Of a stretch of 32,874 nt of DNA, positions 3-32,874 are shown piece after piece. A program made the position numbers and the translations under genes. This DNA is from a virus. The notes under the pieces were generated by a model. It made no database searches and was not told the DNA's origin. It worked only from the letters and a program-made list of their open reading frames with translations. Location: positions 1 to 32,874 of IMG/VR virus record IMGVR_UViG_3300010392_000031. One strand, given 5' to 3'. The stretch's first letter is position 1; every line of letters starts with the position of its first letter.

Positions 3-515
3 GCCCTGCGCGACCAACTCGCAGCGGCCCGGAATGAGACGCTGGAGGAAGCTGCGCGCGTGGTGGACATCGAGTATGAAATGCACAAGGATTATCGGAA
101 CGCAAGCCTACTGTGCAACAACGACGAAGACGCTCAATGTCGCCTAATCTCCATGACGACGTGCGCTTCAATTTCTGCTGCCATCGACGCCCTCAAGGAC
201 ACCACCCCTGCCCCGCTATTTGTCTCTAGCCGCAGCATCCAGATGGACGCCCCGAGCGAAGATTGGCAGGAACACGCAGACAAGGCATCGGCTATTATAC
301 GCGGTTCGGCACAGCGCGAAGTAACCGTGCAGGAGGCGGCGCGGGTGCTGCTGGCAAACCGCTGGGCAGGATACGGCAACTCAAAGGCCATGCAGGCGAT
401 GTGCAACTACGTTCACGACGAGCAAGGCCGGATGCCGTTCCCGGCGTCGTTCTATGACGGTGTAATGCAAGCGGGCCTCCGCGCCCTAGCCAAGGAGGAG
501 CAGAGCGATGGGTGA
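3..515 (+). CDS. Hypothetical phage protein, 5'-truncated
   Basis: I do not recognise a family. The reading frame is open to the window edge, and the residues encoded before the first GTG at 60 (ALRDQLAAARNETLEEAA) look like normal coding sequence, so the true start probably lies outside the window. If not, GTG 60 would give 151 residues. The visible protein is Ala-rich and mostly helical in character, with no clear membrane segment or catalytic motif. Its stop overlaps the start of the next gene by 8 bp, and a strong AAGGAGGAG ribosome-binding site for that gene lies inside its 3' end, so the two are translationally coupled. Small proteins like this are typical of phage early regions. Coding status is fairly sure; function is unknown. 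Confidence 0.6.
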   Translation, partial: ALRDQLAAARNETLEEAARVVDIEYEMHKDYRNASLLCNNDEDAQCRLISMTTCASISAAIDALKDTTPAPLFVSSRSIQMDAPSEDWQEHADKASAIIRGSAQREVTVQEAARVLLANRWAGYGNSKAMQAMCNYVHDEQGRMPFPASFYDGVMQAGLRALAKEEQSDG

Positions 516-6804: not shown

Positions 6805-8597
6805 TGCAAAAGATAAGGCTCCGTTCCGTCAGGCATTAGCCCGGTATTTTCAGCGATCCAACATCCGTTTAGGCGCTCTTCGGCAGTCGCCAGCGAGTAA
6901 ATGGGCGCGGTGTTTTCCATGATTATAGCGAACTTGCCGACGTATAGATAGGACTGCATTTCGACCTGCAATTTCTCACCCGCTTTCGTCTCGGTGGCGT
7001 CGATCACCTGCCAACGCTTGGACACGCGGTTGCCCTCGGTATCCAACTGGTGGCGGGTTTCCAGATCGATCACGTCGCCGATCGAGGCGTCCCGGTCTTT
7101 GGCGTCCACTGTCACCGTCGCGTATTCGGGCGGCAGGCGGTAGCGTAGCAGCTGAGACGCGCCCACAAGCAACGCATTGCCGAACGTCTGCAGCCACCGC
7201 GAATAGATGACGTTTTCTACGATTTCGCCCCCGGCCGCCTCGGCAAGCTCAACTTCGCCGTCTATGCGGACGCGCCGGTTTTCGTAATTTTTGACATCAT
7301 CCTGGGCGGCGAACGGGTCGCGCGGCTTGAAAAATATGCTGACACGGGTCAGCCGATCGTCCGGTTTCACGGTCTTGCTGTAGGTCTTTTGCAGCACGTT
7401 TTCGGCATCCGTCCAGACCACGGGGGTTTGCCCGGGCGGCCTGACGGCCAGCAATGGGATGCGCTGCAAACGTTCATCCCACCAGATCGAAAACAGACCG
7501 TCGCGGCAAAGTTCGCCTAGCAGATCCTCGACCGCTTCGGATTCGGGAATTGTCGCGCTAACCTTGATGGTAGACAGGTAGCTTTGCCCCTCATCGTCCC
7601 ACTGGCCGCCGGTGTTCACATAGCTGTTATCGACTTCGGTGTGATTTTTCAGCAGATCTTCGGCGACCTCATACGGGCGGATGTTCACATACCGGCCAAC
7701 CCGCTGCACGGCGTCATTTTCCGAGTGTTCCGCCGGTGCGGTGCCAAGCCGGGCGCGGCGTACCCCGGTCAGCGTCAAATCCGGCTCCGTCCCGGAATAG
7801 CCGGTATACTCGATGATTTCGTCGTCAATGGCGATAAATTTTGTGGCGCCGGTGTTGCCGTATGCCGCGGTCAGCTGCGCTTCAAGGCACGTCACCGGAA
7901 TGACCTGCGTGGACGCGTCAATATCTGCGGCCAGATCAATCTGTGATACCGCCGGGAATTTTGCCTTGCGGCGGCGCGCTTTATCCAGAGGGTCGCGCCC
8001 GGTGATCGTCACCCTGCCGTTGGCGTCCGGGCCGCTTACATTTTCCAGATCATACAGGCGCACCTGCATAGCTGACAACGCCTGCCCCTTGTAGCCCTCA
8101 TAGACCCGGATCTTGATATTCGGATAAAACGGGTTGCGAACCGTCCACAGTGCCCAGAAACCCGGACGCTTGGCGGGCGCTGTGCGGTCGGCCAGGTAAA
8201 AATCACCGACGTGATCGTCCCACGGGATATCCTGCATCTGGATCCGCACCGATGCGCGCGTACCCAGTGGGCTTTCACCCTTGCGGTTCGCACCGATATT
8301 GATCCGACTGGACGTTGCCGACACGCTGCGCACCATCGGGATGCAGTTCGTCGCGATGTTGTTCGCGTCGGTCTCCTCATAGACCCAACGCAATTGATCT
8401 TGAGGGCGACTGAACCGCCACTTGATCGACCCCGTGCCGTTATAGTTCGGCGTGTCTAGGCAGGTCCAATAAACGTTGTAGCACTTCGGGGTGCCCGTCG
8501 CAGTGCAAGGCGCCACGCCGAAGCGATTGACGCAGCGCGGCTGCTCAATTTCGACAATCTGAACCGTCTCGCGGCCGTATGCGGATTCGTCAGCCAA
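6801..8597 (-). CDS. Large tail hub/tip-like protein
   Basis: The 598-residue protein has four Cys early on (Cys22, Cys31, Cys39, Cys46) in a compact cluster, reminiscent of the Cys-rich segments in DUF2163/BR0599-type tail proteins. The middle part has IAIDDEIIEYTGYSG, a motif I associate with phage tail-tip proteins, followed by LTLTGVRRARLGTAPAEH. The C-terminal part (QTFGNALLVGASQLLRYRLP, VTVDAKDRDASIGDVIDLET) resembles baseplate hub beta-domains. Position right after the distal tail protein and before the appendages fits the tail hub that closes the tube and holds fibres. The exact family is uncertain. The start overlaps the previous gene by 8 bp. Confidence 0.65.
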   Translation of the reverse strand: MADESAYGRETVQIVEIEQPRCVNRFGVAPCTATGTPKCYNVYWTCLDTPNYNGTGSIKWRFSRPQDQLRWVYEETDANNIATNCIPMVRSVSATSSRINIGANRKGESPLGTRASVRIQMQDIPWDDHVGDFYLADRTAPAKRPGFWALWTVRNPFYPNIKIRVYEGYKGQALSAMQVRLYDLENVSGPDANGRVTITGRDPLDKARRRKAKFPAVSQIDLAADIDASTQVIPVTCLEAQLTAAYGNTGATKFIAIDDEIIEYTGYSGTEPDLTLTGVRRARLGTAPAEHSENDAVQRVGRYVNIRPYEVAEDLLKNHTEVDNSYVNTGGQWDDEGQSYLSTIKVSATIPESEAVEDLLGELCRDGLFSIWWDERLQRIPLLAVRPPGQTPVVWTDAENVLQKTYSKTVKPDDRLTRVSIFFKPRDPFAAQDDVKNYENRRVRIDGEVELAEAAGGEIVENVIYSRWLQTFGNALLVGASQLLRYRLPPEYATVTVDAKDRDASIGDVIDLETRHQLDTEGNRVSKRWQVIDATETKAGEKLQVEMQSYLYVGKFAIIMENTAPIYSLATAEERLNGCWIAENTGLMPDGTEPYLLQ

Positions 8598-20466: not shown

Positions 20467-22019
20467 GTCACCTTCGTTTTATCAGCAGCGGTTGCGGGCT
20501 TGATGATAGCATAATCAATCGCATCAATCATTACATCAGTTTGGTCGTCGAATCTATGGCTGTCGTCGGCGGTGAAACTGGCCACCTCTGCCACGAACTC
20601 GAAATTCTGCGGATCGTCAAGCGGCAGCACCACCTTACCCGCCGCCTGATGGCCCTGGGCGTCCAGCGCGCGGGTCAGCTTGTCGCGTTCGCGCGGGACC
20701 GGCGTTATCCGCAACGGCAGTTTGCCCTGCACTTCCTGAATCAGACCGGTACCACTCACCTTGTCTTCGACCAGCACCGCCCGCAGGTTGCCCGCTAAAC
20801 CGCTATTTTTCTCCCAACAGGCGTTCACGAATGACGTAAAATCCCGCCGTAGCTGGGGCGCTTCCATTCGGGCGCGCTGATAGTTCAGGCGATAGATACG
20901 GCCCTCAAACACGCCCCATTCCGCAAACACGGTCCAATCGTTCCAAGTGTTCGTTTTCTGCGCGGTGTCTGCCGTGATGAATCGATATTCCCACTTGCGG
21001 GGTAGCGGTAGGTCGGCGCCGCCATCTTCATCACCAAAATACAGAAAGCCGCCCTCGGTGAAAATCCCGCCATCCAGCTTGTTCGGCGCCTGCATGTATT
21101 GGCTCAAAAACGTGTAAGGGTGCGCCTCGCGCAACGCCAGCAGGTCGGCAATGCTTTCCTTGGCGGGCCAGTAGCTCCACAACCCGTCAACAGGGTCATG
21201 CCCGCAAACGTCCCGAATGCAACGCTCCCGGACGGCATCCGGGAGCTTGTCGATGTAGTCCTGATCGATCAAGGCCGGTATCTCAATATGCAGATCGACC
21301 GATAGCCCCATGCCGCCGGACAAAATGAACGCACTGCTATCGTCGGTGTGAAGGCGCTGTTGGATAAACAGGAAGGGTGTGTCGTATTGAGCCCGCCTCG
21401 ACCGCAGCGTGTTAACAAGGCGCGTGTGTGAGCGATTGCGCTTCGGATCGCTGAACATATCGTCCGGCTTGTCCCAATCATCGGCCGAGACGTAGCCGGA
21501 AAAGCCCGGACCCATATATCCGCCCCGCGCCCCGGTAATCTGCCCGCCATTGGACCGACTGAAAAGCTGGTGCGCCCGCTTGCCGTCTTTCTGGACCGTC
21601 CAGTTGTCCACCTTATCCTTGCCGATCTGAAATCCATAGATCTCCTGAAACTCAGAAGACCGGACCAGTTCCCGGCTGCGTCCGCTGTTTTCGTCCACGA
21701 GGTCTTTCGAATACGATCCGTTCAGGACGCGGACTTTCGGAAATTTCACCATTGCGTAGACTGGTAAGTGGATGCTGAAAAATTCTGTCTTGGTCGCACC
21801 GGGTGCCACGTTGATCACAACGCATTTTGCAGCACCGGACAGCAGCTTTTCAGCAGCCCATGCATAATAGTGATGATGCCAGTTCGCTTGAAAACTTTCG
21901 CCCTGGGTAATGTTGAACCATGCCGCAGTGAAGGCTAGCGGGTTCTGTTCGCCAGCCGCCGCTATGGCCAGCCGCTCAACCGCCGACAGCCCGTCCCATT
22001 CAATCGGGGGGACGGCCAT
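20460..22019 (-). CDS. Terminase large subunit
   Basis: The 519-residue protein has an N-terminal packaging ATPase and a C-terminal nuclease. The P-loop is a terminase-type variant (VAPGATKTEF, residues 71-80) that lacks the second Gly of the standard motif. Walker B is YVSADDWDKPDD (Asp180/Asp181), followed by the coupling segment FIQQRLHTDD (residues 218-227). The RNase H-like nuclease has Asp351 (FITADTA), Asp419 (VLVEDKVSG) and Asp495 (DDQTDVMIDAIDYA). It cuts concatemers and pumps DNA into the prohead. It shares a base with the small-subunit stop and is the second gene of the late operon. Confidence 0.95.
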   Translation of the reverse strand: MAVPPIEWDGLSAVERLAIAAAGEQNPLAFTAAWFNITQGESFQANWHHHYYAWAAEKLLSGAAKCVVINVAPGATKTEFFSIHLPVYAMVKFPKVRVLNGSYSKDLVDENSGRSRELVRSSEFQEIYGFQIGKDKVDNWTVQKDGKRAHQLFSRSNGGQITGARGGYMGPGFSGYVSADDWDKPDDMFSDPKRNRSHTRLVNTLRSRRAQYDTPFLFIQQRLHTDDSSAFILSGGMGLSVDLHIEIPALIDQDYIDKLPDAVRERCIRDVCGHDPVDGLWSYWPAKESIADLLALREAHPYTFLSQYMQAPNKLDGGIFTEGGFLYFGDEDGGADLPLPRKWEYRFITADTAQKTNTWNDWTVFAEWGVFEGRIYRLNYQRARMEAPQLRRDFTSFVNACWEKNSGLAGNLRAVLVEDKVSGTGLIQEVQGKLPLRITPVPRERDKLTRALDAQGHQAAGKVVLPLDDPQNFEFVAEVASFTADDSHRFDDQTDVMIDAIDYAIIKPATAADKTKVTW

Positions 22020-22537
22020 CAGCCTGTCAGCTTATCGACCAGGGCGGCCACGGCTGCGGGTGTCACCGTGTCGGGCGCTGCTGGCGTCATGCTGCCGTCG
22101 CTGGACGTGTGGTCCACCTTCTCTACAAACATGCCCAGATGCTTGCCGAGGCGATCCAGCGCGGCGATCTTGTCATGCATCTTGACCACAATCCCTTCCT
22201 TGGTGTTCCGCACCTCAGAGATAGCACCCGCGACCTTATCCGGAATCTGCCCGCTGTCTTTTGTGTTGATCCGTCCACCGGACCAATCGGCCACTTGCCG
22301 TAGATCGCTGAACGCAATTTTCGCCAGTTCGTGGATCACCCGGTCCTGTGTCACCTCGGTCCGTGCGGCCCGCTGCATCTGGGCCTTGGCGACGGCTGCG
22401 GCGATTTCCGGTTTCGTCAAGTTTTCGTGGGCAATTTTTCCAGCCGTGTTTTCACTGTAGCCCGCACGAATAGCCGCCTGCGTGGCGTTCAGGTCTTTCA
22501 AATATTCTTGGACGAAACGTTCCTGTTTCGGTGTCAT
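22019..22537 (-). CDS. Terminase small subunit
   Basis: I start it at the ATG at 22537, giving 172 residues that begin MTPKQERFVQEYLKDLNATQ and continue AAIRAGYSENTAGKIAHENL, the typical helix-turn-helix of the terminase_2 family, which recognises the packaging start site. The rest is KIAFSDLRQVADWSGGRI and a coiled region (VVKMHDKIAALDRLGKHLG) for oligomerisation. An upstream in-frame extension to 22612 reads through the likely promoter and is doubtful. It is the first gene of the late operon, beside the repeat-rich control region, which is therefore also a candidate packaging site. Confidence 0.9.
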   Translation of the reverse strand: MTPKQERFVQEYLKDLNATQAAIRAGYSENTAGKIAHENLTKPEIAAAVAKAQMQRAARTEVTQDRVIHELAKIAFSDLRQVADWSGGRINTKDSGQIPDKVAGAISEVRNTKEGIVVKMHDKIAALDRLGKHLGMFVEKVDHTSSDGSMTPAAPDTVTPAAVAALVDKLTG

Positions 22538-22571
22538 TTCGCATGGGTCCAGATTGTTATCAGTTGCGGTC

Positions 22572-22600
22572 AATATACGGGCAAATGCGACCCCGCGCAA
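22572..22600 (-). promoter_or_regulatory. Candidate late promoter
   Basis: On the minus strand TTGCGC (22600-22595), 17 bases, then TATATT (22577-22572, 5/6 to consensus). Transcription would start near 22565, about 28 bases before the small terminase ATG. One 13-bp element (22631-22643) lies roughly 30 bases upstream of the -35, a position fit for an activator. Confidence 0.45.
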
Positions 22601-22674
22601 GACGGCTGCCACGGGGGGGTCTGTGCCGGCTGTGCCGATAGATTCTATTTCACTCTGGCAAAAAACAAACGCCC

Positions 22675-22724
22675 AGATAATAACGGATAAAATCGGATAA
22701 AATCAGACAATATCGGCTAATACG
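22675..22724 (+). repeat. Five 10-bp phased AT-rich repeats
   Basis: Consecutive decamers AGATAATAAC, GGATAAAATC, GGATAAAATC, AGACAATATC, GGCTAATACG. Two are identical and the others share the pattern (A/G)G..AATA.C or similar. The period equals about one helical turn, as in DNA-unwinding or iteron elements. Confidence 0.6.
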
Positions 22725-22749
22725 AAATTATAAATTAACCTTTTCGTAT
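22720..22749. repeat. AT-rich 8-bp inverted repeat
   Basis: ATACGAAA (22720-22727) and TTTCGTAT (22742-22749) flank a 14-base AT-rich loop. It begins within the last decamer of the phased repeats and could extrude or melt easily. Confidence 0.5.
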
Positions 22750-22960
22750 ATTTTTCTCTGACAGTGGATACCCCCTATTCTATCGGCACAGCCGGCACAG
22801 AAGGATAGAAACATATGAAAAACAGCCACTTGTGCTGTGCCGATAGAAATATTCTATCGGCACACTACTGGCACAAATCGGTTCTATCGGCACACGGATA
22901 AAATTTTGCTGTGCCGATAGAATCGCCTGTGCCGATAGAATTTCGGTCTATCGGCACAGC

Positions 22961-22981
22961 AAAAAGGGCGCCGAAGCGCCC
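22961..22981 (-). terminator. Leftward terminator with UUCG loop (second)
   Basis: On the minus strand GGGCGC-TTCG-GCGCCC (22981-22966) is followed by TTTTT (22965-22961). The tail runs directly into the 13-bp element at 22946-22958. It is a back-up stop for early leftward transcription. Confidence 0.75.
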
Positions 22982-23005
22982 CGTTTATTAGCCGTTTATG
23001 TGCCA

Positions 23006-23078: not shown

Positions 23079-23105
23079 AAAAAAAAAGACCCGCCGAAGC
23101 GGGTC
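23079..23105 (-). terminator. Rho-independent terminator after the primase operon
   Basis: On the minus strand GACCCGC-TTCG-GCGGGTC (23105-23088), a perfect 7-bp stem with a UUCG tetraloop, is followed by nine T residues (23087-23079). It lies 68 bp after the primase stop and should end the early leftward operon. Confidence 0.92.
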
Positions 23106-23172: not shown

Positions 23173-25812
23173 TCAAGTCCCCGGCGGTTTCATCGGCACA
23201 ATATTCGAACGTTTCGGCTGAAGTTCTTCGGCCTGGGCGGCGTCGTATAGTTCAACGACCCGCTGCGTTTCACATTCGGCAAGTGTCGGGTCGTTGAAGT
23301 AGAGCCGTGCTTGCTTAGCCGCCGGGAACCGCATATCCTCTGCCGGTGTGGGGCGGAACCGCACGCTGTCACAGTAGCCGAGGCGGCGCATGTGCTGGGC
23401 CATCCACCGACCCGCAGGCACCCGTAACCCCTCGCCTTCCATCGCTGTACGGATCGCATTGCTGGACACGAACCCGCCGCGAAAGCCCGGATCACCTGCC
23501 GCGATGCATTCCCGCGCAATGCGGATCAGATCCGGCTCGGAGGCGGCCACAGCGTCCGCCCGTGTGGTTGTCATCGGCGCACGACCGGGTGTCGCCATAG
23601 CGCGCGTCTCAAGCATCCCCCGCACCGCCTCGTTGCCGCCCATATTCCACCAGGTGCGGTAATAGGTGAACCAGTTCTGACCAAGCCCGCCTGCCGCCTC
23701 GATCACAGTGGGGTATCCGTCCCACAGATCGGCAGGGAATGCCGCCTCGATGGCTTCCGGCGTTTGCAGGACGCTAACCAGTTGCGCCCAGCGCCGTTCG
23801 CTTGGGTCGTTTGCTAACATGCTGTCAATGTGGTTCGTCATGAAAAACCAGCATGTGAAATTCTGGCCGCTAAACGGATCGGTTCGCATGAGGCGGTACG
23901 GTACGACGCTTTCCGCTACGGGCTCTTTCAGTTCCTCGATCAGGTCCGTCATGGCAGCCTTGGAACGTTCCCCGATTTCGTCCACCACGACCGTTGTTTT
24001 CCGGTACATATAGCCGTTGTATTCGGCCACCAGCGCCTTCGGACTGACAACGCCAAGGTTCCCACCGATGCAGTGCGACAGTGGTTGTTTGATCAGCAGA
24101 CCCTTGCCGCAACCTTGAGCCCCTTGAAGCACGGGCGCCCACAGCAGCATTTTTCCGGGGTTCTGAACCGCAAACGCCAGTGCGCCGAGTATTACCTCCT
24201 GATCGCCCGGATCTGGATAGTTTGATGCGAGGATGTGCAGATATGGCGAAACGTCCTGCCCGGTCGGCGCCGATGCGCGATGCGCCGGCAGATAGGCGTT
24301 GCGCAGCATTTCCCCGTGATCGGTCCGCCACTGTACGGGCTTGTCGGGATCGAAAGCGAGTTCTGCGTATCGTTCGGTTTCGGGGTCTGACCACCAGTGC
24401 GCGGCAGCCTCGACCAGTTTGATTTTGTCACCGGCCGGAACCGCAATTGTCGGGAGATGTTTGAACCGGATCAGGAAATTTCCGAACGTTACCGCCCGCC
24501 CCGTGTGGCGGTTGATGGCCGCTGGTGATCCGGTCCCGTCGTCGCCGACAATAAACCAGCGGGAGAGCTCGCCGCCCCGTATCGCGTCAAATTGCTGTTC
24601 GCCCTGGGCGACACGGAACGCGTCGATTTCCGCACCGATGGCTGCCTGCAACGGCTTGGCAATATCGGGACGCGTCTGTTTGACTTCGGTCAGCAGCGCG
24701 TCACGTTCCGCCGCAGACAGCCGCGCCGCGTGACTTGCGAGTTCGTCAACTGCGTCGGGATCGGTGCGCTGAGCAAGTTCCTTCAAACCTTCGAGCGATC
24801 CGGTCGCGCGCCGGTCGGCGGTTGCTGTCACCTGCGCCTGCCAGTATTCGCGCAATTCCCGTTCGCATTTCTGACGCCGCGTTTCGCTGCCAGACGGCGG
24901 ATAAGTTTTGTCAACGAACCCGAAGTTCAGCAGCACCTCGCGCGCCACATCGTTTCGGCTGGTGACTTCCGCTGTCGCCCGCATCATCCAGCCCCAGACG
25001 TCAGACGCATCGCCGCCGGACCGGTCCGGAATGCCGAGGTCTAGCAGCATGGCGTTGCGCCCGCCGCGCAGTTTCCGCGTCACCCGATCACAGAGCGCGC
25101 GGAATTCTTCGGGACTGATCGGCCCGTCATCGATCGCAGCGGGCGTCGGCATGACGGGCGGAACGGGGGCGCTTGCGTGCAGCCAGGATTCGAACGCTGT
25201 AAATTGATTTGGATCAAACCGACCACCCGTGCCGCCGATCACCGCCGCGGTCGATGGCTGCCAGCCCGCGGCGGATTTATCCGGGTTCGGATAGGCGATG
25301 GTTCCGGGCAGTTTCATGATCCGGGAGGCGTCCACGGCTGCTTTATCGCCGCCGACCAGCCGTACGGTTGCGCGGTTCATCTGCTCGATGCGGTCGATGT
25401 TTTCCGGCGTCGCTTCCGCGGCGTCCCGCAATCTCCAGTAAGCTTGCAATCCGCGCCCGCTGTTAATGATGATCGACGGATTGCAGGCCGTCACCCTTGC
25501 CAGCGCATCGGCGCGCCATGCGTCATAGTTGGGCCCTGGACCCATACCCGCAGGCGGGTCAAGATCGACGTGCCAGCCGATCAGGGCGGACAGTTCGGAT
25601 TTCGTCAGCTTACCGCTGTTATTGGTGTCGGCTCCAGGGTTGACGTGGAAATAGACGTTGCGACGCGCTGCGTTTTGCAGACTGGCCCACTGTGCCGCCG
25701 CTGCGGGGTCTGTAAACGTCTGCCCGGTCGGTCCGCCGCCGTCCACCGGTATCGTTGTGAGGGTGAACGGCGCACCGCCGTACCAGTTCGCAAGAAATTC
25801 TGCGGAATCCAT
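23173..25812 (-). CDS. Primase-polymerase/helicase (NrS-1-like, DUF5906)
   Basis: The 879-residue protein combines an N-terminal archaeo-eukaryotic-type PrimPol and a C-terminal SF3-like helicase. PrimPol signs are the metal-binding Asp pair in GWHVDLDPP (Asp83, Asp85), INSGRGLQAYWRL (residues 117-129) and DASRIMKLPGTI (161-172). The helicase has Walker A GAQGCGKG (564-571), Walker B TVVVDE (607-612) and a sensor Asn in FFMTN (Asn660), as in DUF5906. Such proteins start and partly carry out phage DNA synthesis; NrS-1 is the best-known relative. The ATG at 25812 follows AGGTGA. It is the last gene of the early leftward operon and adjoins the repeat region, a natural place for its origin. Confidence 0.9.
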   Translation of the reverse strand: MDSAEFLANWYGGAPFTLTTIPVDGGGPTGQTFTDPAAAAQWASLQNAARRNVYFHVNPGADTNNSGKLTKSELSALIGWHVDLDPPAGMGPGPNYDAWRADALARVTACNPSIIINSGRGLQAYWRLRDAAEATPENIDRIEQMNRATVRLVGGDKAAVDASRIMKLPGTIAYPNPDKSAAGWQPSTAAVIGGTGGRFDPNQFTAFESWLHASAPVPPVMPTPAAIDDGPISPEEFRALCDRVTRKLRGGRNAMLLDLGIPDRSGGDASDVWGWMMRATAEVTSRNDVAREVLLNFGFVDKTYPPSGSETRRQKCERELREYWQAQVTATADRRATGSLEGLKELAQRTDPDAVDELASHAARLSAAERDALLTEVKQTRPDIAKPLQAAIGAEIDAFRVAQGEQQFDAIRGGELSRWFIVGDDGTGSPAAINRHTGRAVTFGNFLIRFKHLPTIAVPAGDKIKLVEAAAHWWSDPETERYAELAFDPDKPVQWRTDHGEMLRNAYLPAHRASAPTGQDVSPYLHILASNYPDPGDQEVILGALAFAVQNPGKMLLWAPVLQGAQGCGKGLLIKQPLSHCIGGNLGVVSPKALVAEYNGYMYRKTTVVVDEIGERSKAAMTDLIEELKEPVAESVVPYRLMRTDPFSGQNFTCWFFMTNHIDSMLANDPSERRWAQLVSVLQTPEAIEAAFPADLWDGYPTVIEAAGGLGQNWFTYYRTWWNMGGNEAVRGMLETRAMATPGRAPMTTTRADAVAASEPDLIRIARECIAAGDPGFRGGFVSSNAIRTAMEGEGLRVPAGRWMAQHMRRLGYCDSVRFRPTPAEDMRFPAAKQARLYFNDPTLAECETQRVVELYDAAQAEELQPKRSNIVPMKPPGT

Positions 25813-25914: not shown

Positions 25915-26175
25915 TTAGCGGTAGGAAATACCCATAGCGCGAGCCTGTGCGCGCATGTCATCCGTGCAGTTCGGATGCAGCAACACACGCTTGCGCAGAT
26001 CTTCCAGGTTCGGAAAATAGTGCTTTGTCAATTGCGGCGACGTGTTGACGCTGCACGCCTCTGCCAGCACGCGGCGCGTCCAGCCACATAGGCCGTGTGT
26101 TTCGGACGCGGTGACGGCGGCATCGATTATGACGCGCTCGCGCTGTTCCGGTGTCAGTCGGACAATTTCGGTCAT
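25915..26175 (-). CDS. TetR-type HTH mini-protein
   Basis: The 86-residue protein resembles just the N-terminal DNA-binding domain of TetR-family regulators: RERVIIDAAVTASETHGLC, GWTRRVLAEACSVNTSPQ, then LTKHYFPNLEDLRKRVL, in which KHYF occupies the usual (Y/H)YF place after the recognition helix. The ligand/dimerisation domain is absent; only about 17 residues follow. The ATG follows GAGGGG. It lies just before the primase gene in the early operon, with a 102-bp gap afterwards. It is probably a phage regulator; the 13-bp palindromic elements are a possible target, which is speculation. The fold call is by eye and moderate. Confidence 0.65.
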   Translation of the reverse strand: MTEIVRLTPEQRERVIIDAAVTASETHGLCGWTRRVLAEACSVNTSPQLTKHYFPNLEDLRKRVLLHPNCTDDMRAQARAMGISYR

Positions 26176-26209: not shown

Positions 26210-27460
26210 TTATTGCCCGGTGCGGTCAATCCCCGGCTTGTATGTCGGATCCAAGAACAGCGCGAGCGCGGCCCGTGTGGTCAGATATCCCACGCCGCCG
26301 CGACCCCGCTTGAGCGTTTCCAAAGCAGATTCGACAAGCTGGCGATCAACAACGCCACACATGCGATAAAGTGCTTGTTGACTAGGTGACATTGGAGAAC
26401 GCCTCGATGAAGACCGCGGCCTGTTGCGGATTGATTGCATTGCCGTAGCCCCGCAGGAGCCCCACACGGCCGGGAACCCCATGAGCCAGCGGGAATGTTC
26501 CGGGTTCAACTGGCCGCCACTTTCCATCCCGGCAGAACAGCCAGTCAGGATCTGACCAGAAGCTGTCAGGCGCATCGGTCCGACCAGCTGCGCCTGTCTC
26601 GGCAGTTGGTCCGTTCGGCTGCGGGTCGTCCCGTCGGGGTTCGTCGCGGTTGTCGCCATACCGGCGCTGTCCTTCCAATCTCGGGCCGATGCTGTCACCC
26701 AGCCGGTCAGCGAAATAACCTTCCTGCTGTAATCCGTATTCCCCGCCGGATTGTTCCCGTTTTGCGCTGGCGTTCCGGCCATCGGCGTCGGCCAACCACT
26801 GACTTGCGCCACATCGTTCAGGTTCGCCATCCCGTGGCCCTGCGCTTTCTTCGCGGCGATGTATTCCGGGCTGTGCGCCGGGAAGTGATCGCGGGCTTGT
26901 GGCGTCGGCCACGCCGCTATTTTCGCCATAACCTGCAGATCCGTTATCTCGGTCCTGTTTGCGCCGGTCCCGTCCCGCTCGCCCATCCGGCGCTTCATTG
27001 CCAAATGCGCTTCCGGGGTTTTCCCGTCCGGGCGTGCTACTGGCGTTGGCCATCCGCTGAGCTTCGCGATCCCCGGCAGGCTCACTGTTCCTTTGCTCCC
27101 ATCCGCCCTGCGCCCCGTAGAGGTCATCCCCGTCATGTTCTGTGAGCCGGTCGCATTCCCCACTGTCGGACTTGGCCAACCTGAGCGTATCAACCGCCCC
27201 AAAGTAGGTGCGTTGTCTGATGTGCGGGGCGTCGACGCCCGCTGACGGGAAATCGACCGCCCCAACGGCGTAACGTGCTCCTTCCAGGCGATCCGATAGA
27301 TCATCGAGCCACGCCCATTCAGGCGCGATTTCAGTTCCGTTTCGAGTGCGCTTTGCAACCTTTCCGAAGACTGCCGCGCTGGCGACTTGTTCGCCAAACA
27401 GCACCCCGGGGCGGCAGGCCCCGACCAAGCTGATAAATTTGGGGGCAAGGTGTCGTTCAT
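26210..27460 (-). CDS. WPTP-repeat protein overlapping the methyltransferase gene
   Basis: The frame, shifted +1 from the methyltransferase, is open for 416 codons from the ATG at 27460, which has its own AAAGGA ribosome-binding site 8 bases upstream. The protein starts MNDTLPPNLSAWSGP, contains SRLNGRGSMIYRIAWKEHVT, then repeats (SGWPSPTVGNA, SGWPTPVARPDG, AAWPTPQARDHF, SGWPTPMAGTPA, TGWVTASARDW) and LNPEHSRWLMGFPAVWGSC. I recognise this set from many phage-encoded proteins, so it is not a random frame. Function is unknown. The last 60 residues (from MSPSQQALYRM, ATG at 26392) run past the methyltransferase stop and might be a separate small gene in the same frame. Confidence 0.65.
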   Translation of the reverse strand: MNDTLPPNLSAWSGPAAPGCCLANKSPARQSSERLQSALETELKSRLNGRGSMIYRIAWKEHVTPLGRSISRQRASTPRTSDNAPTLGRLIRSGWPSPTVGNATGSQNMTGMTSTGRRADGSKGTVSLPGIAKLSGWPTPVARPDGKTPEAHLAMKRRMGERDGTGANRTEITDLQVMAKIAAWPTPQARDHFPAHSPEYIAAKKAQGHGMANLNDVAQVSGWPTPMAGTPAQNGNNPAGNTDYSRKVISLTGWVTASARDWKDSAGMATTATNPDGTTRSRTDQLPRQAQLVGPMRLTASGQILTGCSAGMESGGQLNPEHSRWLMGFPAVWGSCGATAMQSIRNRPRSSSRRSPMSPSQQALYRMCGVVDRQLVESALETLKRGRGGVGYLTTRAALALFLDPTYKPGIDRTGQ

Positions 27461-27740
27461 CGTCTTGTCCTTTATTCTCTCCCGCAACAGAAAACGGCTG
27501 ACACGGCGGCGAACCCGTCCACACCGGGCGATCATCGGGCCAGCCCGCTAACCGCAAGGCCAGCGACCAGCCGCCGATACCGGCAAAGAAATGACACTGG
27601 GTGAACTCGGCCAGTTCTCTTGGCTGCACGTCCAGAATTGACCGTTCGTCAACGACACCCGGCGCGATGTGACCACCTTTGATCAGTTCGCGCAGCCACT
27701 CTGCCGCGCCCGGGTCGAATTCGTTATAATACGCGGTCAT
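26382..27740 (-). CDS. DNA cytosine-5 methyltransferase
   Basis: The 452-residue protein has C5-methyltransferase motifs: I HFFAGIGGWSLAL (residues 50-62, SAM binding), IV TGSPPCQPFSVAG with catalytic Cys80, VI LFGEQV (EQV in place of ENV), VIII IRQRTYFGA (174-182) and X GYGNAINPQQAAVF near the C-terminus. Between VIII and X, about 250 residues are Gly/Arg/Asp-rich with repeated (L/M/V)A(D/N)A segments, in the place of the target-recognition domain. It methylates cytosine in phage DNA, probably against host restriction; specificity cannot be read. From residue 94 to the end a second protein is encoded in the +1 frame. Confidence 0.92.
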   Translation of the reverse strand: MTAYYNEFDPGAAEWLRELIKGGHIAPGVVDERSILDVQPRELAEFTQCHFFAGIGGWSLALRLAGWPDDRPVWTGSPPCQPFSVAGENKGQDDERHLAPKFISLVGACRPGVLFGEQVASAAVFGKVAKRTRNGTEIAPEWAWLDDLSDRLEGARYAVGAVDFPSAGVDAPHIRQRTYFGAVDTLRLAKSDSGECDRLTEHDGDDLYGAQGGWEQRNSEPAGDREAQRMANASSTPGRENPGSAFGNEAPDGRAGRDRRKQDRDNGSAGYGENSGVADATSPRSLPGAQPGIHRREESAGPRDGEPERCGASQWLADADGRNASAKREQSGGEYGLQQEGYFADRLGDSIGPRLEGQRRYGDNRDEPRRDDPQPNGPTAETGAAGRTDAPDSFWSDPDWLFCRDGKWRPVEPGTFPLAHGVPGRVGLLRGYGNAINPQQAAVFIEAFSNVT

Positions 27741-27985
27741 CGCTTATCCCGTTCACAAATCAGTTTGTAATCGACCGCCCGTCCGATTTCCCAAATGCGG
27801 GTGTGGAGATCCATTTCGAATAGTGCCTGCCGTGCTGCCCACAGTCGCGCCTGATCGGCATCGGATGCGGTCGGCCCGCCGATTATCACAGGTCGCCTGC
27901 ATGCTTCGTATGCCACCCGCATCGTTTCGCGGGCGGTCTGTTCCCCGGCGGCTTTAATCATGTCGCGCAGGATTTCACGGGTCAT
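27737..27985 (-). CDS. Small helical protein, unknown
   Basis: The 82-residue protein is largely helix (MTREILRDMIKAAGEQTARE, TMRVAYEACRRPVI, ARLWAARQALFEMDLHTRI). It ends with a basic segment (LICERDKR). No motif or family is recognised. It overlaps both neighbours by 4 bp (ATGA), so it is coupled to the pentapeptide-repeat protein and the methyltransferase. It could be a small accessory protein of either; no evidence decides. Confidence 0.6.
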   Translation of the reverse strand: MTREILRDMIKAAGEQTARETMRVAYEACRRPVIIGGPTASDADQARLWAARQALFEMDLHTRIWEIGRAVDYKLICERDKR

Positions 27986-28566
27986 TGTTTCGCCGGACTC
28001 GCATCGATCAGTTGCAGGACAAGTGCGAGATATTTGTCAGCCCATTCCGCTGCTTCTTCGTCCATTTGTGCGATCCACTTGCGACCCGCAGGAGTATCCC
28101 ACTTGCGCCATTTTTCGATGGTGTGCCGCTGACAACCGATTTGTAAGGTGTCGTGCGTGTAGCCAATCGACCATGTATCAAACTGGGCTGTTTTGATTTC
28201 GAGCATATTGCCGCTACACAACAGGTGCGCACCGCGCAGGTCCGCACCGCGCAGGTCCGCATCGATCAGGTCCGCACCGCGCAGGTCCGCACCGTACAGG
28301 TTCGCATCGATCAGGTGCGCACCGTACAGGTTCGCACCGCGCAGGTTCGCACCGCGCAGGTGCGCACCGTACAGGTTCGCACCGCGCAGGTCCGCATCGA
28401 TCAGGTGCGCACCGCGCAGGTCCGCATCGATCAGGTCCGCATCGATCAGGTGCGCACCGCGCAGGTCCGCACCGCGCAGGTCCGCACCGCGCAGGTCCGC
28501 ATCGATCAGGTTGTCCCCTTCAATTTCCAAAATTACAGCACCGGTCCAACGATTTTTGATTTGCAT
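27982..28566 (-). CDS. Pentapeptide-repeat protein with C-terminal phage domain
   Basis: The 194-residue protein has a short N-terminal strand region (MQIKNRWTGAVILEIEGD), then 19 uninterrupted pentapeptides of type A(D/N/H)L(I/R/Y)(D/G) (residues 19-113), predicted to form a right-handed quadrilateral helix. Residues 114-194 form a separate domain with SGNMLEIKTAQFDTWSIGY, LQIGCQRHTIEKWRKW and a helical end. This combination is common in phages but functionally uncharacterised. Some pentapeptide proteins mimic DNA and block gyrase; the uncharged-to-basic repeat here (Asp, Arg mixed) makes such mimicry uncertain. The ATG follows GGGAGAAGTGAC. It lies between the helicase and a small gene in the early operon. 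Confidence 0.88.
   Translation of the reverse strand: MQIKNRWTGAVILEIEGDNLIDADLRGADLRGADLRGAHLIDADLIDADLRGAHLIDADLRGANLYGAHLRGANLRGANLYGAHLIDANLYGADLRGADLIDADLRGADLRGAHLLCSGNMLEIKTAQFDTWSIGYTHDTLQIGCQRHTIEKWRKWDTPAGRKWIAQMDEEAAEWADKYLALVLQLIDASPAKQ
28228..28512 (-). repeat. Nineteen 15-bp tandem repeats coding pentapeptides
   Basis: The DNA is built from 15-bp modules. On the plus strand most are one of CAGGTCCGCACCGCG, CAGGTCCGCATCGAT or CAGGTTCGCACCGTA, plus GTGCGC variants. The near-identity at wobble positions implies recent expansion by slippage or recombination. All frames of this array lack stops, which makes false ORFs on the other strand. Confidence 0.92.
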
Positions 28567-30373: not shown

Positions 30374-30979
30374 ATGGAATTCAAATTTGACCCCACATAT
30401 CCGCCGGATCGCGACGCCGCTTTGCGCGTCATCGGTCTGTTTTCCGGCAGCGCACCCGCCGCAGATCCGGCACCCGCCGCAGATCCGGCAGAGGTGGATA
30501 TTCACGGTATGGTGTGGGACGGTGAAATTCACGCATCGACCAAAGCGAAAAACGCCGATGGTTCCTGGCGGGCACGCAAAGGGCGGTCGGACGAATACGA
30601 AGCCGCAATCGCCGCCCATAAGGCAGAGCAAACCGAAGCGTCCGGCGCTGCGATGGTCCCGACGACTGAACCGGAGCAGTCCGCCGCACCCGCCCCGACG
30701 GGCAGCATGCCGATGCCTGCGCCGCAGCCCGCTGCACCCGAACCCACAACGCCGCAAGCGCCGGTCGGCTATGAGGAAATGGCAAACCGCTTTGTCGGCA
30801 TGATGAACGCCGGGAAAATCGCAGACTTTGAGGCGGTGTATCGTGATCTCGCGATCAATCACGCAGATCTCGAAACGAACCTCACCAGCATCGACCGGCT
30901 GTGGCAGTACATGACTGCGATTGATGCAGGCGCCGGACACCCGGACGCGGTGCAGCGCGCAATGGCGGCGGCAGGCTGA
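30374..30979 (+). CDS. Hypothetical protein upstream of the nuclease gene
   Basis: The 201-residue protein begins MEFKFDPTYPPDRDAALRVI and then has a linker APAADPAPAADPA encoded by an 18-bp direct repeat (30452-30487). Residues about 43-80 (VDIHGMVWDGEIHASTKAKN, WRARKGRSDEYEAAIAAHK) look like a small conserved nucleic-acid-related motif found in phage proteins upstream of recombination genes. A Pro/Ala-rich linker follows, and a helical C-terminus (YEEMANRFVGMMNAGKIADF) resembles a domain in other phage replication proteins. No enzymatic call is possible. It is joined to the nuclease gene by a TGATG junction and heads the rightward operon. Confidence 0.72.
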   Translation: MEFKFDPTYPPDRDAALRVIGLFSGSAPAADPAPAADPAEVDIHGMVWDGEIHASTKAKNADGSWRARKGRSDEYEAAIAAHKAEQTEASGAAMVPTTEPEQSAAPAPTGSMPMPAPQPAAPEPTTPQAPVGYEEMANRFVGMMNAGKIADFEAVYRDLAINHADLETNLTSIDRLWQYMTAIDAGAGHPDAVQRAMAAAG

Positions 30980-32073: not shown

Positions 32074-32874
32074 ATGGCTAACTATCCAACAGAATACGGT
32101 ACGACCCCGGTCGGCCGGATCATCATGCACCCGCGTGAAGGTTTGTTTCAGAAAGGGACAACCGACCAGCACAACCGCCCGATTGAGCCGAACAAGCAAC
32201 GATATTTTGTCGGGCTGGCCGTGGAAAAGTCCGCCCCCGGCGTGAACGAGATGCTTGGCATTTTGCAAAAAGCGGCAATGGCCGGTTACGCGTCGAACCC
32301 GCAGGTGATGCAGCAGATTCAAATAGGCCTTGGCGCGACTGCATTTTCCTGGAAGGTGCAGGACGGCGACGAAATGATCGTCAACCCTGAAACCGGCCAA
32401 CAGGAGCCGCGCACGCCGCACGGCCAAGGTTGCTGGATCTTCAAGTTTTCGACCACTATCCCGATGCGCGCGGCCAAATTTCCGCCGGGTGCGAACGTAC
32501 CTGTCGATTGCGGCGAGGATGAGCTGTACAAGGGCTGTTTTGCGCAGATTTCCTATTCGGCCAGCGCGAACGGGAATATCGACCACACCGCCGGGGTCTA
32601 CCTGAACCCGAAAACAATCTGCCTGATCGGACACGGCGAACCGATCACCGGCGGCCCGTCGCTTGAACAGCAGTTTCAGGGCGGCACGGGCGGTTACGTC
32701 CCCGCCGGTATGTCACAGACACCTCTCGCGCCGACCGGCGCACTGGGCGGCATGGGCCAGCAGCAGCCCATGCAGACGCAGCAGCCCATGCAGACGCAGC
32801 AGCCCATGCAGACGCAGCAGCCCATGCAGACGCAGCAGCCCATGCAGACGCAGCAGCCCATGCAGACGCAGCAG
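32074..32874 (+). CDS. Phage ssDNA-binding-like protein, 3'-truncated
   Basis: The frame starts at ATG 32074 (MANYPTEYGTTPVGRIIMHP), 3 bases after the nuclease stop, with AAAGG upstream, and remains open to the window edge (267 codons). The body (KQRYFVGLAVEKSAPGVNEM, ATAFSWKVQDGDEMI, HGQGCWIFKFSTTIPMRAAK, QISYSASANGNIDHTAGVYL) resembles DUF2815-type phage ssDNA-binding proteins with an OB fold. The C-terminal part is a flexible Gly-rich linker and a QQPMQT repeat of at least six copies. Protein interaction tails are common in such proteins, but here the usual acidic tip lies outside the window, if present. Placement after the nuclease fits a recombination/replication role. Confidence 0.75.
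   Translation, partial: MANYPTEYGTTPVGRIIMHPREGLFQKGTTDQHNRPIEPNKQRYFVGLAVEKSAPGVNEMLGILQKAAMAGYASNPQVMQQIQIGLGATAFSWKVQDGDEMIVNPETGQQEPRTPHGQGCWIFKFSTTIPMRAAKFPPGANVPVDCGEDELYKGCFAQISYSASANGNIDHTAGVYLNPKTICLIGHGEPITGGPSLEQQFQGGTGGYVPAGMSQTPLAPTGALGGMGQQQPMQTQQPMQTQQPMQTQQPMQTQQPMQTQQPMQTQQ
32761..32874 (+). repeat. 18-bp tandem repeat at the window end
   Basis: Six perfect copies of an 18-bp unit (CAGCAGCCCATGCAGACG, coding QQPMQT) plus six bases of a seventh run to the edge. Identical copies at an edge often mark an assembly break. Confidence 0.95.

Follow-up and report, generated by a model that had tools for sequence, protein, structure and literature searches.

The analysed stretch of DNA (the window) comprises 32,874 nucleotides of the viral record IMGVR_UViG_3300010392_000031. 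Both its ends overlap, without mismatch, with those of another contig, IMGVR_UViG_3300005600_000058, which gives a circular map of 39,463 bases, and therefore the uniqueness of the repeat array considered here could be checked over the whole phage. The contigs end at different places, and this suggests a circular or circularly permuted genome. The left operon includes a ResIII-type helicase gene, a methylase-like gene, a gene of a TetR-like HTH protein and a PrimPol-helicase gene, followed by the array and then by the terminase and structural genes. The right operon codes for a DUF2800 protein, a gp2.5-like SSB, a DNA polymerase and a processivity-factor-like protein. A phage with such a replication set would need an origin that its own initiator can find. 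The main coding features around the array are as follows:

22019-22612, minus strand: small terminase ORF (Terminase_2), whose likely true start is the ATG at 22544 or 22537
23173-25812, minus strand: PrimPol-helicase gene (879 aa; Pfam DUF5906, phage DNA primase PHROGs), the proposed initiator
23296-23538, minus strand: predicted winged-helix domain of PrimPol, about residues 759-839, the proposed reader of the array
25915-26175, minus strand: HTH86, an 86-aa TetR-like HTH protein, kept beside the primase

The helicase part of PrimPol (SF3/D5-type) is backed by profiles (DUF5906, 1.3e-10; DNA primase PHROGs, down to 1.3e-16), whereas for the N-terminal primase part the PHROG matches are weaker; the name PrimPol itself is taken from the initial annotation. 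Within the early operon, a 194-aa pentapeptide-repeat-like protein (DLRGADLRGA...) is encoded at 27982-28566 on the minus strand, and the 15-bp repeats of its gene dominate k-mer counts. An 18-bp tandem repeat, translated as QQPMQT, was found in the C-terminal part of the gp2.5-like SSB gene (window 32694-32874; L020 6905-7825). The methylase region (26210-27740, minus strand) contains two long overlapping ORFs of 441 and 452 aa in different frames.

The array is built of sites of the form TGTGCCGATAGA[A/T/C], located at 22631-22958 of the window:

22631-22643, plus strand: site 1, TGTGCCGATAGAT, 1 mismatch
22778-22790, minus strand: site 2, TGTGCCGATAGAA
22836-22848, plus strand: site 3, left half of a 13-3-13 palindrome
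22852-22864, minus strand: site 4, right half of the 13-3-13 palindrome
22882-22894, minus strand: site 5
22910-22922, plus strand: site 6
22928-22940, plus strand: site 7
22946-22958, minus strand: site 8, 1 mismatch

The counts of the initial annotation were confirmed: eight copies, four per strand, in about 330 bp, six of them packed into 22836-22958 (123 bp), and a perfect 13-3-13 palindrome formed by sites 3 and 4 at 22836-22864. Twelve columns of the site are identical in all eight copies, and column 13 is A in six of them, T in one (22631) and C in one (22946). On the 39,463-base circle the 12-mer occurs four times on each strand, always in the array, at an expectation of 0.004 from base composition. 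The same pattern read backwards gave no match in the same search.

The surroundings of the array contain several features beyond those listed initially, namely a 23-bp inverted repeat, an AT core and two leftward terminators:

22620-22642, plus strand: left arm of the perfect 23-bp inverted repeat, holding site 1 and an extra TGTGCC
22643-22778: AT-rich core between the arms of the inverted repeat, a putative unwinding element
22779-22801, minus strand: right arm of the 23-bp inverted repeat, holding most of site 2
22965-22982, minus strand: leftward intrinsic terminator beside the array, GGGGCGC-TTCG-GCGCCCT, TTTT
23088-23105, minus strand: leftward intrinsic terminator after PrimPol, GACCCGC-TTCG-GCGGGTC, T9
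22572-22600, minus strand: putative terminase promoter TTGCGC-17-TATATT, outside the array, found by eye (the consensus scanner reported none)

The array sites flank the AT-richest stretch of the genome: at 31% GC, positions 22641-22760 have the lowest value of any 120-bp stretch of the circle. The array is thus placed between the two terminators behind the PrimPol-helicase gene and the putative terminase promoter, after which the likely starts of terminase follow. The array strand folds strongly (z -13), as inverted repeats entail, and iterons are present as well. The GC skew, initially suggested as a check, does not switch at the array and is uninformative for an origin because it follows gene direction (minimum at 30762).

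The window's own word pair, searched in viral contigs, was found in the same phage only (the repeated site sequence is called the word below). Syntenic relatives were obtained by a polymerase search and by a search with a three-sequence PrimPol alignment, a seven-sequence alignment being too diverged to serve as a query; the viral relatives are mostly contigs and possibly fragments. In relatives with the region covered, a terminator directly follows PrimPol, and then come about 300 bp with an AT core (about 27-37% GC) and a mixed-orientation repeat array; in L122 and L127, where the match is cut or duplicated at that point, no array could be read. Five words, A (TGCCCGGATAG), B (GGCCCGGATAG), C (TGGACAGATAG), D (GGCCCGGCTAT) and E (CCCCGGCTAG), were distinguished. 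The initial annotation had proposed to look for the same element beside the primase-terminase junctions of related phages; an array is indeed present at this position, and each word group spells it differently. The words differ even between close relatives, and the positions and orientations of the sites are largely kept, with a layout recurring across word groups (e.g., +63+, +84+, +97-, +141+, +265-, +312+). Judging from these sequences, the word appears to have been replaced in place within a fixed layout. The top k-mer beats all or nearly all shuffles in most of the relatives' loci; for L117, where no single k-mer was significant, the assignment came from an alignment with its neighbours.

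More distant relatives, L181 and L182, have a core with 17-19% GC that is flanked on either side by GGTCTCA repeats (six copies). By k-mer scan, no clear array was found after the primase in six better-known phages with related primases, Agrobacterium phages 7-7-1 and Milano, Klebsiella phage MEW1, Edwardsiella phage MSW-3, Shewanella phage SppYZU01 and Pantoea phage AAM22, or in ctUhy936, and several distant viral relatives also show none. Relatives found through TerS and TerL do not share PrimPol, and the search of genome contigs for PrimPol relatives confirmed none. In Curvibacter phage PCA1 (L089), a mixed-orientation cluster of CCTAGGGGC repeats is situated downstream of the primase at 8254-8594, and a weak GTTCCAA repeat in an AT-rich stretch (28% GC) lies directly behind the primase, just after 6683.

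These arrangements bear on the idea that the small terminase binds the array as a site where packaging begins (pac/cos). Such sites are often near the small terminase gene, which in the window comes directly downstream of the array. In L111, L112, L149, L153 and L156, however, the next gene after the array is not a terminase, the genes beside the relatives' arrays are methylase- or ParB-like, and in L153 and L156 a terminase-like ORF is 2-4 kb away. In addition, the word tracks the end of the primase, and the DNA downstream is uncorrelated with it. A packaging role is therefore very improbable in our opinion, and among the functions considered initially it is the origin that is supported, while packaging is disfavoured by an array that stays with the primase when the terminase, in those relatives where it was located, is kilobases away.

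The PrimPol proteins of the relatives have a conserved helicase core, and their last approximately 100 residues are split by word. The distances between winged helices (residues 765-845) correlate with the word distances at a partial Mantel r=0.90 (p=0.0005) with the helicase core (520-764) as control, a value in which phylogeny is only partly modelled, the word groups were set by eye beforehand and the independent switches are few. For residues 700-764 the partial r was 0.48, in a stretch that overlaps the control region. Between words A and C, fixed differences occupy exactly five of 590 comparable PrimPol columns, all at 776-840, and three of the five are consecutive (NRC/TKT, 826-828). The helicase cores of L123 and L124 are 98.8% identical, yet both the word and the winged helix differ. 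The initial annotation had found nothing in the neighbouring genes to explain the array; the PrimPol gene probably does explain it. The PrimPol of the window is only about 35-40% identical to this set over its C-terminal half, and the pairing of the window's own word with its PrimPol is thus extrapolated from the relatives. In L123, L124, L125, L132 and L133 the N-terminal region of PrimPol is strongly variable or unmatched despite a highly similar helicase, suggesting from sequence comparison that the priming domain may have been exchanged too.

HTH86 was also considered as a reader of the array and was rejected, as no covariation between it and the word was observed (partial r -0.10, p 0.66, 45 pairs) and its sequence hardly changes among relatives with words A-D. 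Of the binders named initially, PrimPol is thus favoured by covariation and the TetR-type HTH protein is not. The same result weighs against a late-gene control array, that is, a set of operators for HTH86 or PrimPol that would switch the terminase/late promoter at the end of the early phase. The place of the array between two transcription units, after leftward terminators and just upstream of the putative terminase promoter, agrees with such a function, as does a TATAAT-like stretch in the AT core conserved in several relatives. But the sites are distributed to the left and right of an AT core of 100-140 bp and not over one promoter, and the downstream genes vary (terminase in the window, methylase-like in relatives) as the array stays with the primase. 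We consider late-gene control unlikely as the main function; it may be a secondary one, and bound PrimPol may have a secondary autoregulatory role.

Covariation could also result from linkage only, if the primase end and the array were co-inherited in recombination tracts with no mutual contact. They are adjacent, the N-terminal regions of PrimPol are visibly shuffled between relatives, and L141 contains a mosaic join. This explanation is disfavoured because it predicts a strong signal in the PrimPol tail and the terminator, which is absent or weak: the tail (residues 846-870), located between the winged helix and the array and nearest to the latter, gave a partial r of 0.07 (p 0.27), the terminator segment only 0.20, and for the 300 bp downstream of the array the value was -0.09. 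Moreover, the fixed differences between words A and C are located in the winged helix, and the pattern also holds for L168. Thus, linkage without contact seems quite improbable.

In L168, fetched after the groups had been defined, PrimPol is followed by nine or ten TGGACACCAA-like sites. The wing letters of L168, TKTR, are those of word C, and TGGACA is common to both words; helix 3 differs from that of word C, and so does the 3' half of the word. At the sequence level, L168 supports the connection between word and winged helix. A search for a sixth word revealed GTGGCAC arrays in L148, L149, L153 and L156 directly behind a primase with a C-terminus different from that of PrimPol, called VapE-type here from a reading of its sequence and not from a profile result. 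The HTH protein in L149 and L153 is 79-84% identical to that of a PrimPol-type relative, and the 336-aa gene downstream in L149 and L156 is of the same kind as in PrimPol relatives. Another VapE-type primase, in L113, is accompanied by a nine-copy AGGTGCCC array around an AT-rich stretch of its own. One contig, L141, contradicts the pattern: an A-type PrimPol end is joined to a GTGGCAC array. Its PrimPol has several frameshifts, and the match changes over from PrimPol-type to VapE-type at the shared terminator; from this sequence, L141 is likely an assembly chimera or a dead recombinant. In L109 and L110, a further C-terminal piece of PrimPol, interrupted by a stop, is present at 121-450 (minus strand), beyond the G007 array, and is perhaps a relic of an earlier primase exchange.

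An AF2 model of the window's C-terminal domain (mean pLDDT 71) consists of helix, strand, helix, helix, strand and strand, the order of a winged helix. The residues that track the word lie at about 798-804, where helix 3 begins, and at about 833-837, in the wing strand. A PDB fold search with this model gave no significant match, and the structure model of a longer construct was poor. The predicted topology indicates that the domain likely has a winged-helix fold.

Taking these data together, we estimate a probability of about 0.83 that the array is a replication origin bound by the C-terminal winged helix of the phage's own PrimPol-helicase. PrimPol-helicase monomers would bind non-palindromic sites of 12-13 bp through this domain, in both orientations and on both sides of the AT-rich core. 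Binding would load helicase rings at the core, the core would melt, and the PrimPol domain would prime synthesis for the phage polymerase. When the word changes in relatives, either the domain and all the sites would alter together or the whole primase-helicase would be exchanged. The spelling of the word changes with the DNA-reading end of the primase-helicase, and so origin and reader probably evolve as lock and key.

Features of the P4/SaPI type were found at the locus, including an SF3/D5-type helicase, short repeats around an AT-rich region and an array directly downstream of the initiator gene; by analogy, the array may function in the manner of the origins of P4 or SaPI. SaPI Rep and SCCmec Cch2 are described in PMC7581432, citing Ubeda 2007, as self-loading initiator helicases whose C-terminal domain recognises iterons directly behind their genes. 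An initiator helicase with a C-terminal DNA-binding domain, iterons downstream of its gene and cognate specificity, indicated here by covariation, would be common to these systems and the present one. In contrast to them, the helicase is fused here to an N-terminal primase-like domain, the phage is apparently a free one that encodes a polymerase and an SSB of its own, and near-identical relatives have different words at site positions that are conserved. P4 alpha, another precedent for an origin behind the initiator gene, binds origin repeats with a winged helix according to PMC4234260; P4 alpha carries a bacterial Toprim-type primase, and the sequence and layout of its array differ.

The protein ORF904 of pRN1 combines PrimPol, an SF3 helicase and a C-terminal winged helix, and the origin is behind its gene (PMC4234260). 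The domain order is similar to that found here, as are the location of the origin after a terminator downstream of the replication gene and a sequence-variable stretch between conserved flanks. The pRN1 origin is a stem-loop of roughly 100 nt with no iterons, whereas the present locus contains many short sites; a stem could also arise here from the two 23-bp arms that enclose the AT core. In PLE satellites, the origin and the origin-binding domain are exchanged together, possibly under Odn attack (PMC8263062). Iteron origins swapped between relatives with the origin-binding domain of the initiator would be common to PLE RepA/ICP1 Odn and the phages studied here, although the initiator and its domains differ. 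The only sequence match with a solved structure was the PrimPol of phage NrS-1 (6k9c/6k9e), a weak one in the helicase region (E about 0.006); studies on NrS-1 deal with template motifs recognised by the primase (PMC8718748) and not with a C-terminal winged helix that reads an array at the origin. What sets the present array apart from these systems is the combination of a helicase fused to a primase-like domain, an apparently free phage lineage and a rapid turnover of words in a fixed layout.

More tentatively, and with rather less than even odds, it may be proposed that the origin word and the winged helix diversify fast, jointly and in a modular manner, the wing corresponding to the 5' half of the word and helix 3 to the 3' half. 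Phages that are otherwise nearly identical would then have origin types incompatible with one another, and the driving force may be satellites or nucleases that attack the origin, as has been proposed for PLE and Odn.

A change in the specificity of an initiator and its origin without loss of function is difficult to observe in nature. Here, near-identical helicases (98.8% in one pair) are accompanied by different winged helices and fully re-spelled arrays of the same layout. Such a series may be used for studies on the recognition code, on origin incompatibility between phages and on the drivers of change. It also offers a simple guide to the origins of uncultured phages that have a primase of this type, which may be sought directly behind the primase-helicase gene.
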